Shown here: one piece after another, positions 10,330-29,084 of the stretch
Position numbering within the stretch: position 1 is the first letter of the stretch
Layout: each line of letters begins with the position of its first letter
NCBI RefSeq assembly: GCF_014191495.1
Contig: NZ_JACHWR010000002.1
Span: forward strand, 62,001-126,000
DNA length: 64,000 bases
Source of the DNA: Nocardioides soli
GTDB taxonomy: Bacteria; Actinomycetota; Actinomycetes; Propionibacteriales; Nocardioidaceae
Direction of reading: 5' to 3'
Made by a program: the position numbers and the translations under genes
Notes under the pieces: model-generated
Databases searched by the model: none
Told to the model about the DNA's origin: nothing
The model's input: only the letters and a program-made list of their open reading frames with translations

Positions 10330-10620
10330 ATGAGCAAGGCAGCTGCATTCATCGAGGCGGAGGGGATGGTCGCCGTCTTCGACGCCGTCGACGCGATGGT
10401 GAAGGCCACCGACGTCACGGTCGAGGGGACCATGCGTCTCGGCGGCGGGATCGTGGCCGTCGCCCTCAGCGGCGACCTCGCCACCGTGGAGGAGGCGACC
10501 GAGATCGGCGTCGCCACGGCCCGCTCCCTGACCCGCGGCAAGGTGGCCTCGGTCATCTTCGCCAGCCCCAGCGTCCCCGTTGCGGCGATCGCCGCCAACA
10601 CCGCCGTCATCGACGGCTGA
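10330..10620 (+). CDS. bacterial microcompartment hexamer shell protein (BMC-H) 1
   Basis: A 96-residue single BMC-domain protein. It has the family start (AAFIEAEGMVAVFDAVDAMV) and the central loop RLGGG at residues 36-40 in place of the common K/R-IGSG pore loop, then GDLATVEEATEIG and a short C-terminus. Six copies form a flat hexagonal tile of a protein shell, with the loop lining the central pore. The start has AAGGAA upstream. Two more shell genes follow within 340 bp. The altered pore loop implies different selectivity from its neighbour. Confidence 0.9.
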   Translation: MSKAAAFIEAEGMVAVFDAVDAMVKATDVTVEGTMRLGGGIVAVALSGDLATVEEATEIGVATARSLTRGKVASVIFASPSVPVAAIAANTAVIDG

Positions 10621-10633
10621 GGAGTGCACAGAC

Positions 10634-10951
10634 ATGGCTAAGGACAACGCAATCGGCCTGATCGAGACCCGGGGCATCGTGGCCCTGGTCGCCGGTATCG
10701 AGGCGATGATGAAGACCTCCGAGGTGCAGACGGTCAACGTCGAGCGGATCGGGTCGGGCTACTTCTCGGCCGCCGTGCAGGGCGATATCGCCGCGGTGCG
10801 GCAGGCCCTGGACTCCGGGTCCGCGGCGGTCAAGCAGTACGGCGAGCTCCGCTCGGCGCAGCTCTACCCGCGGCCTGCGGAGGAGTCGGTGGCCCTGCTC
10901 GACAACGGCACGCGCGACCTCCTCGGTGGCGGTACGCCGAAGAAGGGCTGA
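10634..10951 (+). CDS. bacterial microcompartment hexamer shell protein (BMC-H) 2
   Basis: A 105-residue single BMC-domain protein starting at the ATG at 10634; the longer upstream frame is rejected because it overlaps shell protein 1. Landmarks are AIGLIETRGIVALVAGIEAM, the canonical pore loop RIGSG at residues 38-42, and GDIAAVRQALDSG. A 20-residue C-terminal tail ends in GGTPKKG. It is a PduA/CcmK-like shell tile. The gap to the preceding gene is 13 bp and to the vertex gene 4 bp. Confidence 0.92.
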   Translation: MAKDNAIGLIETRGIVALVAGIEAMMKTSEVQTVNVERIGSGYFSAAVQGDIAAVRQALDSGSAAVKQYGELRSAQLYPRPAEESVALLDNGTRDLLGGGTPKKG

Positions 10952-10955
10952 GCCG

Positions 10956-26297: not shown

Positions 26298-26320
26298 CGA
26301 CGGGACGGTCGGGGTCAGGC

Positions 26321-27322
26321 TCAGCCGGCCAGGTCGAGGGCGATGTCGATGATCATGTCCTCCTGGCCGCCGACCAGTCGCCGCTTGCCGCACTCGGTGA
26401 GGATGTCCCGCACGTCGACGCCGTAGCGGGCGGCGGCGTTCTCGGCGTGCCGCAGGAAGCTGGAGTAGACGCCGGCGTACCCGAGCGTCAGCGTCTCGCG
26501 GTCCACCCGCACCGGGCGGTCCTGGAGCGGCCGGACCAGGTCGTCGGCGGCGTCCTGCAGCGCGAAGAGGTCGCAGCGGTGCTCGAAGCCCGACAGGTTC
26601 GCGACCGCCACGAACGCCTCGATCGGGCAGTTGCCGGCACCCGCGCCGTGGCCGGCCAGCGACGCGTCGACGCGGTAGGTGCCCTCCTCGACGGCGACCA
26701 CGGAGTTGGCGACCGAGAGGGAGAGGTTCTCGTGGGCGTGGATGCCGATCTCGGTGCCGGCGTCGAGGACGTCGCGGTAGGCCCGCACCCGGTCCCGCAC
26801 GTCGTTCATGGTGAGCCGACCGCCGGAGTCGGTGACGTAGACGCAGTGGGCGCCGTAGGACTCCATCAGCTTGGCCTGCCGGGCGAGCTCGTCGGGCGGC
26901 GCCATGTGGGAGAGCATCAGGAAGCCGGAGACGTCCATGCCGATCTCGCGCGCGGCGGCGATGTGCTGGGCGGAGATGTCCGCCTCGGTGCAGTGCGTCG
27001 CGACCCGGACCGACCGGACGCCGAGGTCCCAGGCGGTCCTCAGCTCGTGGATGGTCCCGACGCCCGGCAGCAGCAGCGTGGTCAGCCGGGCCTGGGTGAT
27101 CGACTCGGCGGCCGCCTCGATCCAGGCCCAGTCGGTGTGCGAGCCGGGGCCGTAGTTGACCGACGAGCCGGCCAGCCCGTCGCCGTGGGCGACCTCGATG
27201 GCGTCGACGCCGGCGGAGTCGAGGGCAGCGACGATGCGGCGTACGTCGTCGGGCTCGATCCGATGCCGTACGGCGTGCATGCCGTCGCGCAGCGTGACGT
27301 CCTGGACGAAGATGTCGGTCAT
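26321..27322 (-). CDS. mhpE: 4-hydroxy-2-oxovalerate aldolase
   Basis: A 333-residue class II pyruvate aldolase (DmpG/BphI/MhpE family). Landmarks are the N-terminal QDVTLRDGMHAVRH with the Arg-Asp metal site, HGDGLAGSSVNYG, the metal-binding IGIHAHENLSLSVANS, and the C-terminal communication domain ending GGQEDMIIDIALDLAG. It splits 4-hydroxy-2-oxovalerate into pyruvate and acetaldehyde. The start overlaps the end of the acetaldehyde dehydrogenase gene; the two proteins form a channelling complex in known systems. It is the final enzyme gene of the meta-cleavage route. Confidence 0.93.
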   Translation of the reverse strand: MTDIFVQDVTLRDGMHAVRHRIEPDDVRRIVAALDSAGVDAIEVAHGDGLAGSSVNYGPGSHTDWAWIEAAAESITQARLTTLLLPGVGTIHELRTAWDLGVRSVRVATHCTEADISAQHIAAAREIGMDVSGFLMLSHMAPPDELARQAKLMESYGAHCVYVTDSGGRLTMNDVRDRVRAYRDVLDAGTEIGIHAHENLSLSVANSVVAVEEGTYRVDASLAGHGAGAGNCPIEAFVAVANLSGFEHRCDLFALQDAADDLVRPLQDRPVRVDRETLTLGYAGVYSSFLRHAENAAARYGVDVRDILTECGKRRLVGGQEDMIIDIALDLAG

Positions 27323-28275
27323 GCCTGGTCCCTTCCGGCGAGGCGCTGAGCAATCTCCTGGGCGACCTGCAGGCCGGCCGAGGTCATGATGTCGAGGTTG
27401 CCGGCGTAGGCCGGCAGGTAGTGCGCGGCGCCCTCGACCTCGAGGAACACCGACACCTGGTGGGTCGGTCGCGGCAGGCCGTCGGGGACCAGCGTGTGCA
27501 CCGGCTGGTCGGCGGGGATCTCGGTGATCTGCACCTGCTGCTTGAGCCGGTAGCCCGGCACGTAGGCCGCGACGTCGCCGACCATCTTCTCGATGCTCTG
27601 CCGGATCAGCTCGTGCGTCGCCGGGTCGGGCGCGTCGACCAGGCAGAAGACCGTGTCGCGCATGATCAGCGGCGGCTCGGCCGGGTTGAGGATGATGATC
27701 GCCTTGCCCGCGGTCGCGCCGCCGACGGAGACGATGGCCGCCGAGGTGGTCTCGGTGAACTCGTCGATGTTCGCCCGGGTGCCCGGACCGGCCGACTTCG
27801 AGGCGATCGACGCGACGATCTCGGCGTAGGCGACTGGGACCACCCGCGAGACCGCCGCGACGATCGGGATCGTCGCCTGGCCGCCGCAGGTCACCATGTT
27901 CACGTTCGTGGCGTCCAGGTGCGCGTCGAGGTTGACCGCCGGCACGACGTACGGCCCGATCGCCGCCGGCGTCAGGTCGATCATCCGCTTGCCCAGCGGC
28001 TGGAGCCGGGCGGCGTTGGACTCGTGGGCCTTCGCGCTGGTGGCGTCGAAGACGATCTCGATGTCCTCGAAGCCGGGTAGCCCGACCAGCCCCTCGACCC
28101 CCTCGGCCGTCGTCGGCACGCCGAGCCGCTGGGCGCGGGCCAGCCCGTCGGAGGCGGGGTCGATGCCGACCATGGCGCCCATCTCGAGGTGCTTGCTGGT
28201 GCGCAGCACCTTGATCATCAGGTCGGTGCCGATGTTGCCCGACCCGATGATCGCGACCTTTGTCTTCCCACTCAT
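27319..28275 (-). CDS. mhpF: acylating acetaldehyde dehydrogenase
   Basis: A 318-residue CoA-acylating acetaldehyde dehydrogenase (DmpF/BphJ/MhpF). It has the NAD loop GSGNIGTDL at residues 11-19 and the catalytic Cys130 in VTCGGQATIP. It converts acetaldehyde, NAD and CoA to acetyl-CoA. It is co-translated with the aldolase (four-base overlap), matching the known aldolase-dehydrogenase channel. It lacks the tag seen on the dioxygenase, so it probably works in the cytosol or enters by another route. Confidence 0.93.
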   Translation of the reverse strand: MSGKTKVAIIGSGNIGTDLMIKVLRTSKHLEMGAMVGIDPASDGLARAQRLGVPTTAEGVEGLVGLPGFEDIEIVFDATSAKAHESNAARLQPLGKRMIDLTPAAIGPYVVPAVNLDAHLDATNVNMVTCGGQATIPIVAAVSRVVPVAYAEIVASIASKSAGPGTRANIDEFTETTSAAIVSVGGATAGKAIIILNPAEPPLIMRDTVFCLVDAPDPATHELIRQSIEKMVGDVAAYVPGYRLKQQVQITEIPADQPVHTLVPDGLPRPTHQVSVFLEVEGAAHYLPAYAGNLDIMTSAGLQVAQEIAQRLAGRDQA

Positions 28276-29084
28276 CGCTCGTCCTCCCTGCTGAATCGAA
28301 TCGAGACACTGCCGAGCCCCGAGATGTCGGCGCGGACCGACGCACCCGGCGTGACCGGCCACATCGGGCCGAGGGCACCCGACAGCACGACCTGGCCGGC
28401 GCGCAGCGGCTCCCCGAACTCCCGCGCGGTCCGCGCGAGCCAGGCCACCGCCTCCAGCGGGTCGCCCAGGCAGGCAGCGCCGTCGCCGGTGGAGACCACC
28501 TGGCCGTCGATGCCCATCGACATCGTCACGTCGCGGGGCTCGAGGTCGGCCAGGGTGCGCCGCTGCGAGCCCAGCACGTACGCGCCGGCCGACGCGTTGT
28601 CGGCGACGGTGTCGCCGAGGCTGATGTCCCAGCCCGCGACCCGGCTGCCGCAGATCTCCAGGGCGGCCACCGCGTAGTCGACGGCCGCGCGCACCTGCGC
28701 CGCGTCGAGCGGGCCCTCGACCAGGTCGTGCTCGAGCACGAACGCGATCTCGGCCTCCACCCGCGGCTGCAGCACCGCGCCGAAGGGGACGGCGTCGCCG
28801 TCGGCGTGCGCCATGTCGTCGAAGAGCACGCCGAAGTCCGGCTGGTCCACCCCGAGCTGCTCCTGCACAGCGGGGGAGGTCAGCCCGATCTTGCGGCCCA
28901 CGACCCGGGCGCCCGCGGCAACCCGCCGGTCGGTGAGCCGCTGCTGGACGGCGTACGCCGCGGGCAGGTCGTCGCGGCCGATCAGGTCCCGCACGGGCGG
29001 GCACGGGACGCCGCTGCGGTCCGCGGCCCACAGTCGGTCGGCCGCCTCCTGGACGGCCGTCGCGCTCGAGATGGTCTCACTCAT
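28272..29084 (-). CDS. mhpD: 2-oxopent-4-enoate hydratase
   Basis: A 270-residue dienoate hydratase of the MhpD family. Motifs are VGRKIGLTSPAVQEQLGVDQPDFG near residue 60 and LQPRVEAEIAFVL near 105, and LGDTVADNASAGAYVLG near 150. It hydrates 2-oxopent-4-enoate to 4-hydroxy-2-oxovalerate. It is first in the hydratase-dehydrogenase-aldolase operon and overlaps the next gene by four bases. It is distinct from the decarboxylase paralogue at 12759. The divergent IclR gene probably controls it. Confidence 0.9.
   Translation of the reverse strand: MSETISSATAVQEAADRLWAADRSGVPCPPVRDLIGRDDLPAAYAVQQRLTDRRVAAGARVVGRKIGLTSPAVQEQLGVDQPDFGVLFDDMAHADGDAVPFGAVLQPRVEAEIAFVLEHDLVEGPLDAAQVRAAVDYAVAALEICGSRVAGWDISLGDTVADNASAGAYVLGSQRRTLADLEPRDVTMSMGIDGQVVSTGDGAACLGDPLEAVAWLARTAREFGEPLRAGQVVLSGALGPMWPVTPGASVRADISGLGSVSIRFSREDER

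Follow-up and report, generated by a model that had tools for sequence, protein, structure and literature searches.

An ARO-type microcompartment locus of Nocardioides soli in which two M24-family hydrolases share the N-terminal tag of the dioxygenase

Gene content of the locus

We analysed a stretch of 64,000 nucleotides from Nocardioides soli (contig NZ_JACHWR010000002.1, positions 62,001 to 126,000; hereafter the window), which contains a bacterial microcompartment (BMC) locus of the ARO type and, beside it, two genes for M24-family hydrolases whose products begin with the same short tag as the beta subunit of the dioxygenase. Window proteins were assigned to families by Pfam and NCBIfam profile searches against curated cut-offs (Table 1). 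The genes lie in five blocks between 5.1 and 29.9 kb: M24a-HyuA1-HyuB1 (5061-10226); the shell operon (10330-13948), with two BMC-H genes and one BMC-P gene followed by dehydrogenase, decarboxylase-like and RidA genes; M24b-HyuB2-HyuA2 (14020-19334), followed by an IclR gene; the dioxygenase beta and alpha genes (20302-22118) and then a sugar-type ABC transporter up to 25960; and, on the minus strand, the aldolase, acetaldehyde dehydrogenase and hydratase genes (26321-29084), with a second, divergent IclR gene. A genome-wide profile search found PF00936 only in the two BMC-H genes of the window.

A previous, sequence-only reading of the window had proposed a shell around the meta-cleavage of 2-aminophenol, placing two BMC-H genes and a vertex gene in one operon with dehydrogenase, RidA and decarboxylase genes, AmnA/AmnB-like dioxygenase genes at 20.3 kb, and hydratase, acylating dehydrogenase and aldolase genes at 26.3-29.1 kb. 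The profile searches confirmed each of these genes and the operon coordinates; among the lower-pathway genes the acylating dehydrogenase and the aldolase exceed their cut-offs and the hydratase falls below its own. The M24/Hyu operons of the first and third blocks, both IclR genes and the ABC transporter had been overlooked. Both dioxygenase subunits match chains of the 2-aminophenol 1,6-dioxygenase 7txy, which, from its description and residue range, we take to be the M. rosaria structure. The beta subunit aligns to 7txy_B from residue 1 to the end, N-terminal extension included, while the non-compartment enzymes 3vsg_B and 8ihg_A align with it only from residue 36.

The proposal of a shell for 2-aminophenol agrees with Doron et al. 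2023, who ran in vitro assays on the M. rosaria enzymes and put forward the same compartment model (PMC10470539). The rationale offered for the shell, leakage of picolinate, is likewise the published one, as picolinic acid appears in vitro once the dehydrogenase is omitted (PMC10470539). The sequence-only reading had mentioned aromatic-type loci in BMC surveys without confirming that such a composition was described; it was right about the composition, but this is not new, the ARO type having entered the catalogue of Sutter et al. in 2021 (PMC8217296), with its characterisation following in 2023 (PMC10470539). The locus belongs to the ARO type of microcompartment, and its central idea is already in print.

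Several features place the locus in this type: one BMC-P and two BMC-H genes, the adjoining IclR gene (19422-20186), an untagged dehydrogenase above the TIGR03216 cut-off, and a two-subunit 2-aminophenol 1,6-dioxygenase with an N-terminal extension on beta. A deaminase in place of a tautomerase marks the 2-aminophenol subtype (PMC10470539); in the window a Rid-family gene with predicted deaminase activity lies in the shell operon, and the Pfam scan of the proteins at 5-30 kb gave no match to any tautomerase family. Gene order departs from the usual one, since the dioxygenase genes form a separate unit 9 kb downstream instead of standing directly upstream of the shell genes. That order is usual in ARO loci but no requirement (PMC10470539), and the dioxygenase is also apart from the shell genes in two other loci (L003 and L005). 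In the host's order the dioxygenase was found in one of the 293 genomes drawn, that is, in its own.

Table 1. Genes and palindrome copies of the locus (positions in the window)
Feature	Position	Strand	Family evidence or remark
M24a, M24-family (pita-bread) hydrolase, N-terminal tag MSSVFHPPIGDRTWRNR	5061..6323	+	PF00557
HyuA1, hydantoinase/oxoprolinase A	6325..8454	+	PF01968; nearest curated family caprolactamase alpha, NF050156 675 bits, below cut-off 1000
HyuB1	8460..10226	+	PF02538; NF050157 370 bits, below cut-off 1000
BMC-H shell protein 1	10330..10620	+	PF00936 48 bits, cut-off 24.5
BMC-H shell protein 2	10634..10951	+	PF00936 74 bits, cut-off 24.5
BMC-P vertex protein (EutN/CcmL)	10956..11213	+	PF03319 47.5 bits
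2-amino/2-hydroxymuconate semialdehyde dehydrogenase (AmnC-type), untagged	11281..12759	+	TIGR03216 789 bits, cut-off 693
4-oxalocrotonate (2-oxo-3-hexenedioate) decarboxylase-like	12759..13541	+	PF01557; TIGR03218 (DmpH) 180 bits, below cut-off 350.55
RidA-family, predicted 2-aminomuconate deaminase	13538..13948	+	PF01042; best 70 bits, below subfamily cut-off 106
M24b, second M24-family hydrolase, tag MTRVFRVPHGG	14020..15444	+	PF00557
HyuB2	15472..17244	+	PF02538; CapB family 366 bits, below cut-off 1000
HyuA2	17241..19334	+	PF01968; CapA family 683 bits, below cut-off 1000
IclR-family regulator, putative palindrome binder	19422..20186	+	PF01614, PF09339
ARO dioxygenase beta (AmnB-type, LigB-type), tag MSNVFRVPVGDRTWQRR	20302..21282	+	PF02900; 7txy_B 497 bits
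ARO dioxygenase alpha (AmnA-type, LigB-type)	21279..22118	+	PF02900; 7txy_A 307 bits
ABC transporter substrate-binding protein, sugar type	22196..23272	+	PF13407
ABC transporter ATPase, two nucleotide-binding domains	23340..24875	+	PF00005
ABC transporter permease	24872..25960	+	PF02653
4-hydroxy-2-oxovalerate aldolase	26321..27322	-	TIGR03217 555 bits, cut-off 286
Acetaldehyde dehydrogenase (acylating)	27319..28275	-	TIGR03215 463 bits, cut-off 282
2-oxopent-4-enoate hydratase-like	28275..29084	-	NF008461 305 bits, below cut-off 350
Second IclR-family regulator, divergent from lower-pathway operon	29154..29924	+	PF01614
Palindrome, exact, distal site before M24a	4962..4980	.	one of three exact genome copies
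Palindrome, exact, proximal site before M24a	4999..5017	.	centre 53 bp before M24a start
Palindrome, 1 mismatch, before shell operon	10216..10234	.	centre 105 bp before BMC-H start
Palindrome, exact, before M24b	13959..13977	.	centre 52 bp before M24b start
Palindrome, 2 mismatches, before dioxygenase beta	20241..20259	.	centre 52 bp before dioxygenase beta start

A tag shared by the dioxygenase and unrelated hydrolases

N-termini were compared across the window and 32 other ARO dioxygenase loci. In the window M24a begins with MSSVFHPPIGDRTW, dioxygenase beta with MSNVFRVPVGDRTW and M24b with the tag given in Table 1, where the longer forms of the first two are also found. The consensus M-x-x-V-F-[R/H] occurs on dioxygenase beta, on M24a and M24b, and on a metallo-beta-lactamase-fold (MBL-fold) hydrolase in two other ARO loci. 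The beta subunit starts with M..VF[RHKQ] in 28 of the 32 other loci and with MSRIFR in L004; in L006 and L029 the available sequence starts inside the gene, and L034 (Actinomadura montaniterrae) holds a partial beta match only (residues 74-179), in a locus with no other ARO gene.

The pattern M..VF[RHKQ] matched 37 coding-like start sites in the loci and the window, namely 29 dioxygenases (the 28 and the window's), M24a and M24b of the window, M24b of L003 (Microtetraspora glauca), two MBL-fold proteins, from L004 (Streptomyces sp. SID8352) and from L005 (Amycolatopsis jejuensis), and 3 matches put down to chance, among them two internal starts in HyuB. Seven altered patterns, used as a control, gave 0 to 19 matches each. 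When residues 2-20 of 8107 coding-like starts were scored against the window dioxygenase, ranks 1-22 were all taken by tag proteins, with M24a 3rd, the MBL-fold proteins 5th and 7th, M24b of L003 9th and M24b of the window 14th, while the best unrelated start came 23rd. This ranking and the altered-pattern controls led us to reject a chance origin of the tag. At the DNA level a strict pattern matched nothing, even the known copies, and a looser one matched M24b only, because M24a and the dioxygenase use TTT or other codons. A query with residues 1-40 of the dioxygenase, which drew 5 candidates, had no hit among them.

Most relatives of the hydrolases are without the tag. It is carried by 12 of the 240 M24 homologs listed, 7 among the best 120 of 250 for M24b and 5 among the best 120 of 138 for M24a, the window's own protein included; the other 228 are untagged, a few of them being N-terminally cut. 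These homologs were found by sequence alone and their genomic context is mostly not known. In the trees the tagged M24b sequences cluster (8 of 80 tips, support 0.915), and so do the tagged M24a sequences, with weak support (6 of 81 tips, 0.589). Judging from these homologs and trees, the tag is new to the hydrolases. It is kept in M24b homologs 64-78% identical to that of the window, while the next 30-80 residues vary freely. AlphaFold models give a predicted local distance difference test (pLDDT) score below 50 to residues 1-84 of M24b and 1-34 of M24a and a well-folded remainder, and residues 1-29 of dioxygenase beta are invisible in the crystal (PMC10470539).

Within ARO loci the tag is found on the LigB dioxygenase, on M24a and M24b, which are only distantly related to each other, and on an MBL-fold enzyme. 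Recurrence on several cargoes that are unrelated but belong to a single compartment type is what an encapsulation peptide would present, and targeting to the shell is predicted from this distribution.

A palindrome upstream of the tagged genes

The tagged genes of the window and its shell operon are preceded by the 19-bp palindrome TGTCCGG-N5-CCGGACA, of which the 5.81-Mb genome holds three exact copies, all preceding the two M24 genes. Four copies have one mismatch, the one before the shell operon and three elsewhere inside predicted coding open reading frames. Before the tagged MBL genes the palindrome is centred 52 and 51 bp from the start, so that four of the five tagged hydrolase genes have it near -52. 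Thirty dioxygenase genes were compared: 11 have the palindrome with at most 2 mismatches at about 52 bp (the 10 outside the window at 50-54), a further 7 have a weaker form (3-5 mismatches) at 52-54, the copy of L016 lies at 112, and none was seen in L017 or in the 10 Micromonospora and Verrucosispora loci. Of the random 200-bp stretches drawn, 3.6% contained a copy with no more than 2 mismatches; the operator-bearing loci in the pool inflate this value. Ten other ARO genomes hold 7 exact copies in total, 6 of them in the ARO locus (4 of the 10 genomes) and the seventh outside it (G317); 5 of the 10 have no exact copy.

Between the palindrome and the ATG a TANNNT box, ending 6-7 nt before the ATG, is present in 8 of the 10 genes printed and read by eye, which suggests that the transcripts are leaderless. 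We infer that the IclR protein binds the palindrome, and position -52 would suit an activator, by analogy with other IclR activators. On the minus strand at 2646-4862, divergent from M24a, lie genes for an FAD/BBE-type oxidase and a member of the Asp/Glu/hydantoin racemase family, which may use the M24a palindromes too.

The M24 hydrolases and HyuA/HyuB pairs

Metallopeptidases of the M24 family (Xaa-Pro type) bind their metals through Asp, Asp, His, Glu and Glu. In alignments of M24a and M24b these positions hold Ser/Tyr, Glu, His, His and Ala, the first four of which vary little or not at all across 39 M24b and 37 M24a sequences. A role as true M24 peptidases is disfavoured, as the metal ligands are missing; the fold is closest to that of ectoine hydrolase. 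For the HyuA/HyuB pairs a role as acetophenone carboxylase is disfavoured too, the CapA/CapB (caprolactamase) scores being about twice as high. The two tagged M24 hydrolases and the two HyuA/HyuB pairs likely form the upper pathway.

This assignment touches questions left open in PMC10470539: the precursor of 2-aminophenol, the inducer, and the entry route of the untagged dehydrogenase. HyuAB is the sole possible upper-pathway candidate named there for an ARO locus. In M. rosaria 2-aminophenol gives no growth and seemingly no induction of the locus (PMC10470539), so that 2-aminophenol itself is probably not the natural starting compound.

Interpretation

Our preferred reading, to which we assign a probability of about 0.55, is that the ARO shell holds, together with the dioxygenase and the dehydrogenase, the tagged M24 hydrolases, which are predicted to release 2-aminophenol inside it. 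The IclR regulator would bind the palindrome before the M24, shell and dioxygenase units. The imported compound, perhaps taken up via the ABC transporter, would be 2-aminophenol in masked form, as an amide, carbamate or lactam (candidates are benzoxazolinone or an N-acyl-2-aminophenol), and its ring would be opened in the cytosol by the ATP-dependent HyuA/HyuB pairs. The ring-opened product would then enter the shell, where M24a or M24b may cut the remaining C-N bond and the dioxygenase and dehydrogenase would act at once, so that free 2-aminophenol is not oxidised to aminophenoxazinone and the semialdehyde is not cyclised to picolinate. RidA, decarboxylase, hydratase, aldolase and acetaldehyde dehydrogenase would complete the route to pyruvate and acetyl-CoA.

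It should be noted that several observations weigh against this proposal. The dehydrogenase has no tag at its N-terminus, and the encapsulation role of the tag is itself a prediction, even for the dioxygenase. The dioxygenase copy of the palindrome has two mismatches, a level that the genome reaches 51 times for the palindrome and 20 times for its reversed form, so that the weight of this copy comes chiefly from its position; the shell-operon copy lies 105 bp from the start rather than 52, and M24b of L003 has no palindrome of its own. For M24a the DoeA and creatinase matches are tied, so the fold leaves the reaction unfixed, and all four Hyu proteins are below the caprolactamase cut-offs. Within 10 kb, a tagged M24 gene was found in just one of the 32 other ARO loci (L003), and a search of those 32 whole genomes with M24a was positive for the L003 genome alone. 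The Micromonospora loci, that of the characterised species included, have HyuA/HyuB without M24 or palindrome, so that the model of an unmasking hydrolase holds for a subset, or sub-type, of ARO loci at best.

A different explanation, which we regard as unlikely, is that of a plain ARO compartment with cytosolic hydrolases, on which the tag is a by-product of promoter duplication and has no role. As the promoters look leaderless, copying the regulatory region of the dioxygenase would copy its first codons too, and palindrome, TANNNT box and tag do travel together at near-fixed spacing; moreover, binding of the tag to the shell is a prediction, and Doron et al. expect upper-pathway enzymes to be cytosolic (PMC10470539). 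However, the Microtetraspora M24b retains the tag without a palindrome of its own, and such a by-product sits poorly with a tag that outlasts the free variation of the residues behind it. M24a and M24b are moreover no more than distant relatives, an enzyme of MBL fold has the tag as well, and the peptide is disordered in the dioxygenase crystal as in both M24 models.

It is rather improbable that the tag is primarily a docking peptide joining dioxygenase, hydrolase and dehydrogenase in one complex, with encapsulation secondary. Tagged proteins were seen only in or near shell-gene loci, in a search of those loci and of the 240 M24 homologs with their mostly unknown context, which speaks against docking; yet the dehydrogenase has no encapsulation peptide and is still thought to be encapsulated, making piggy-back assembly plausible, and the tag, in contrast to the encapsulation peptides known so far, is not predicted to be helical (PMC10470539). 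A compartment for catechol, flanked by chance by M24/Hyu operons of an unrelated amide or lactam pathway, is very improbable, since the activity of the ARO dioxygenase on catechol in vitro (PMC10470539) is set against the 2-aminophenol subtype mark of the shell operon and against the palindrome and tag that the M24 operons have in common with the ARO genes.

Beyond the preferred reading of M24 hydrolases inside the shell, we tentatively suggest, at slightly less than even odds, that a modular non-helical tag of the M-x-x-V-F-[R/H]-x-P-x-G-D-R-T type moves with its operator and leaderless promoter onto unrelated hydrolases. The compartment would be an unmask-and-cleave organelle whose natural substrate is set by an exchangeable tagged hydrolase: a protected aminophenol, such as a plant allelochemical of the benzoxazolinone type, would enter, and free 2-aminophenol would exist only inside. 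In this general form, with different tagged hydrolases in different ARO loci, the data comprise two hydrolase types in four loci (the window, L003, L004 and L005). If true, it would account for the lack of both growth on and induction by 2-aminophenol supplied from outside.

Natural substrate, inducer and choice of cargo are stated as open questions for ARO compartments (PMC10470539). The shared tag points to candidate cargo and the palindrome to the likely regulon, with the tagged hydrolases in view the substrate can be sought among masked aminophenols, and a new kind of cargo tag would serve for loading engineered shells.

Other ARO loci and neighbouring genes

Relatives of the MBL-fold hydrolase of L004 and L005 were found in 6 of 16 ARO genomes, with N-termini that differ from the tag. 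Among the untagged MBL paralogs (L042-L048), several have N-termini that by eye look like Tat export signals, as though replacement of such a signal by the tag had redirected an exported enzyme to the inside. The two loci with tagged MBL enzymes also have a Baeyer-Villiger-like flavin monooxygenase (L004:14534-17183, L005:2117-4033), best matched by cyclohexanone and phenylacetone monooxygenases and followed in L004 by an alpha/beta hydrolase; in these loci the upstream compound may be a ketone, for instance 2'-aminoacetophenone. In L015 (295-2657), immediately upstream of the dioxygenase, genes for an MBL-fold hydrolase without the tag and for an amidohydrolase follow an exact copy of the palindrome. 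The best PDB match of this MBL-fold hydrolase is 8x78_L (284 bits), its closest solved relative, and a literature search for the code 8x78 returned no occurrence.

Four loci of Pseudonocardiales type have PPDK_N-type and PEP-utilizer-type genes after the shell genes (L016:12802-15715, L017:7087-10046, L026:12640-15435, L027:12562-15327), and L016 has a HAD hydrolase in addition; the calls come from a family scan for L016 and one L026 gene and from similar N-termini for the others. These loci possibly have a phosphorylating upper pathway.

In the window, the importer directly 3' of the dioxygenase genes (22196-25960) is complete and of sugar type; a scan of the 32 other loci showed none except weak ATPase matches. 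Further along, a mycofactocin-type cluster (31720-38629) comprises MftR-like regulator, radical SAM, FMN dehydrogenase, creatininase-family and glycosyltransferase genes and a short reading frame (32414-32520) whose end reads IDGMCGVY by eye. FAD-binding monooxygenase, lyase and thiolase genes at 43343-51433 resemble an aromatic cluster of the beta-ketoadipate type. Two more LigB-family genes lie outside the ARO locus of the same genome (C2:344505 and C1:1939882).

Comparison with known systems

The window resembles published ARO loci in its shell gene set, two-subunit LigB dioxygenase with extension, untagged CoA-independent dehydrogenase, RidA and IclR genes, in lower-pathway genes with an IclR gene of their own, and in having HyuA/HyuB nearby. 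It differs in that its HyuA/HyuB pairs number two and are each accompanied by an M24 hydrolase with the dioxygenase tag, in the common palindrome, in the dioxygenase unit downstream of the shell genes and in the ABC transporter that follows it. The shared tag and palindrome make it a variant which we did not find in print: M24, peptidase, lactamase, operator and transporter are not mentioned in the main text of PMC10470539, while its supplement, which holds the locus figures, may show M24 or MBL genes.

The N-terminal extension of the ARO dioxygenase is known from ARO enzymes only and is not predicted to be helical (PMC10470539). Like the encapsulation peptides described for other metabolosomes (PMC10470539), the tag is a short terminal extension that is followed by a flexible linker and not confined to a single cargo; it differs from them in the lack of a predicted helix, in its consensus, and in its distribution, being present on the dioxygenase and on hydrolase genes of three kinds and absent from the aldehyde dehydrogenase.

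The free AmnABCDEFGH pathway (Comamonas; 3vsg) has the same order of reactions, and the window beta subunit scores 381 bits to 3vsg_B, but that pathway has neither shell nor N-terminal tag. Ectoine hydrolase DoeA/EutD and creatinase have the M24 fold and are 20-25% identical to the window M24 proteins, tag and linker being absent there. To caprolactamase CapA/CapB the Hyu proteins score (Table 1) above their acetophenone carboxylase values. Finally, BxdA, a lactonase of maize-root bacteria acting on 6-methoxy-2-benzoxazolinone (MBOA), is by the description in PMC11297187 a hydrolase that turns a benzoxazolinone into an aminophenol; it has no shell and is likened here by that description, not by sequence, to the MBL-fold hydrolases of other ARO loci.

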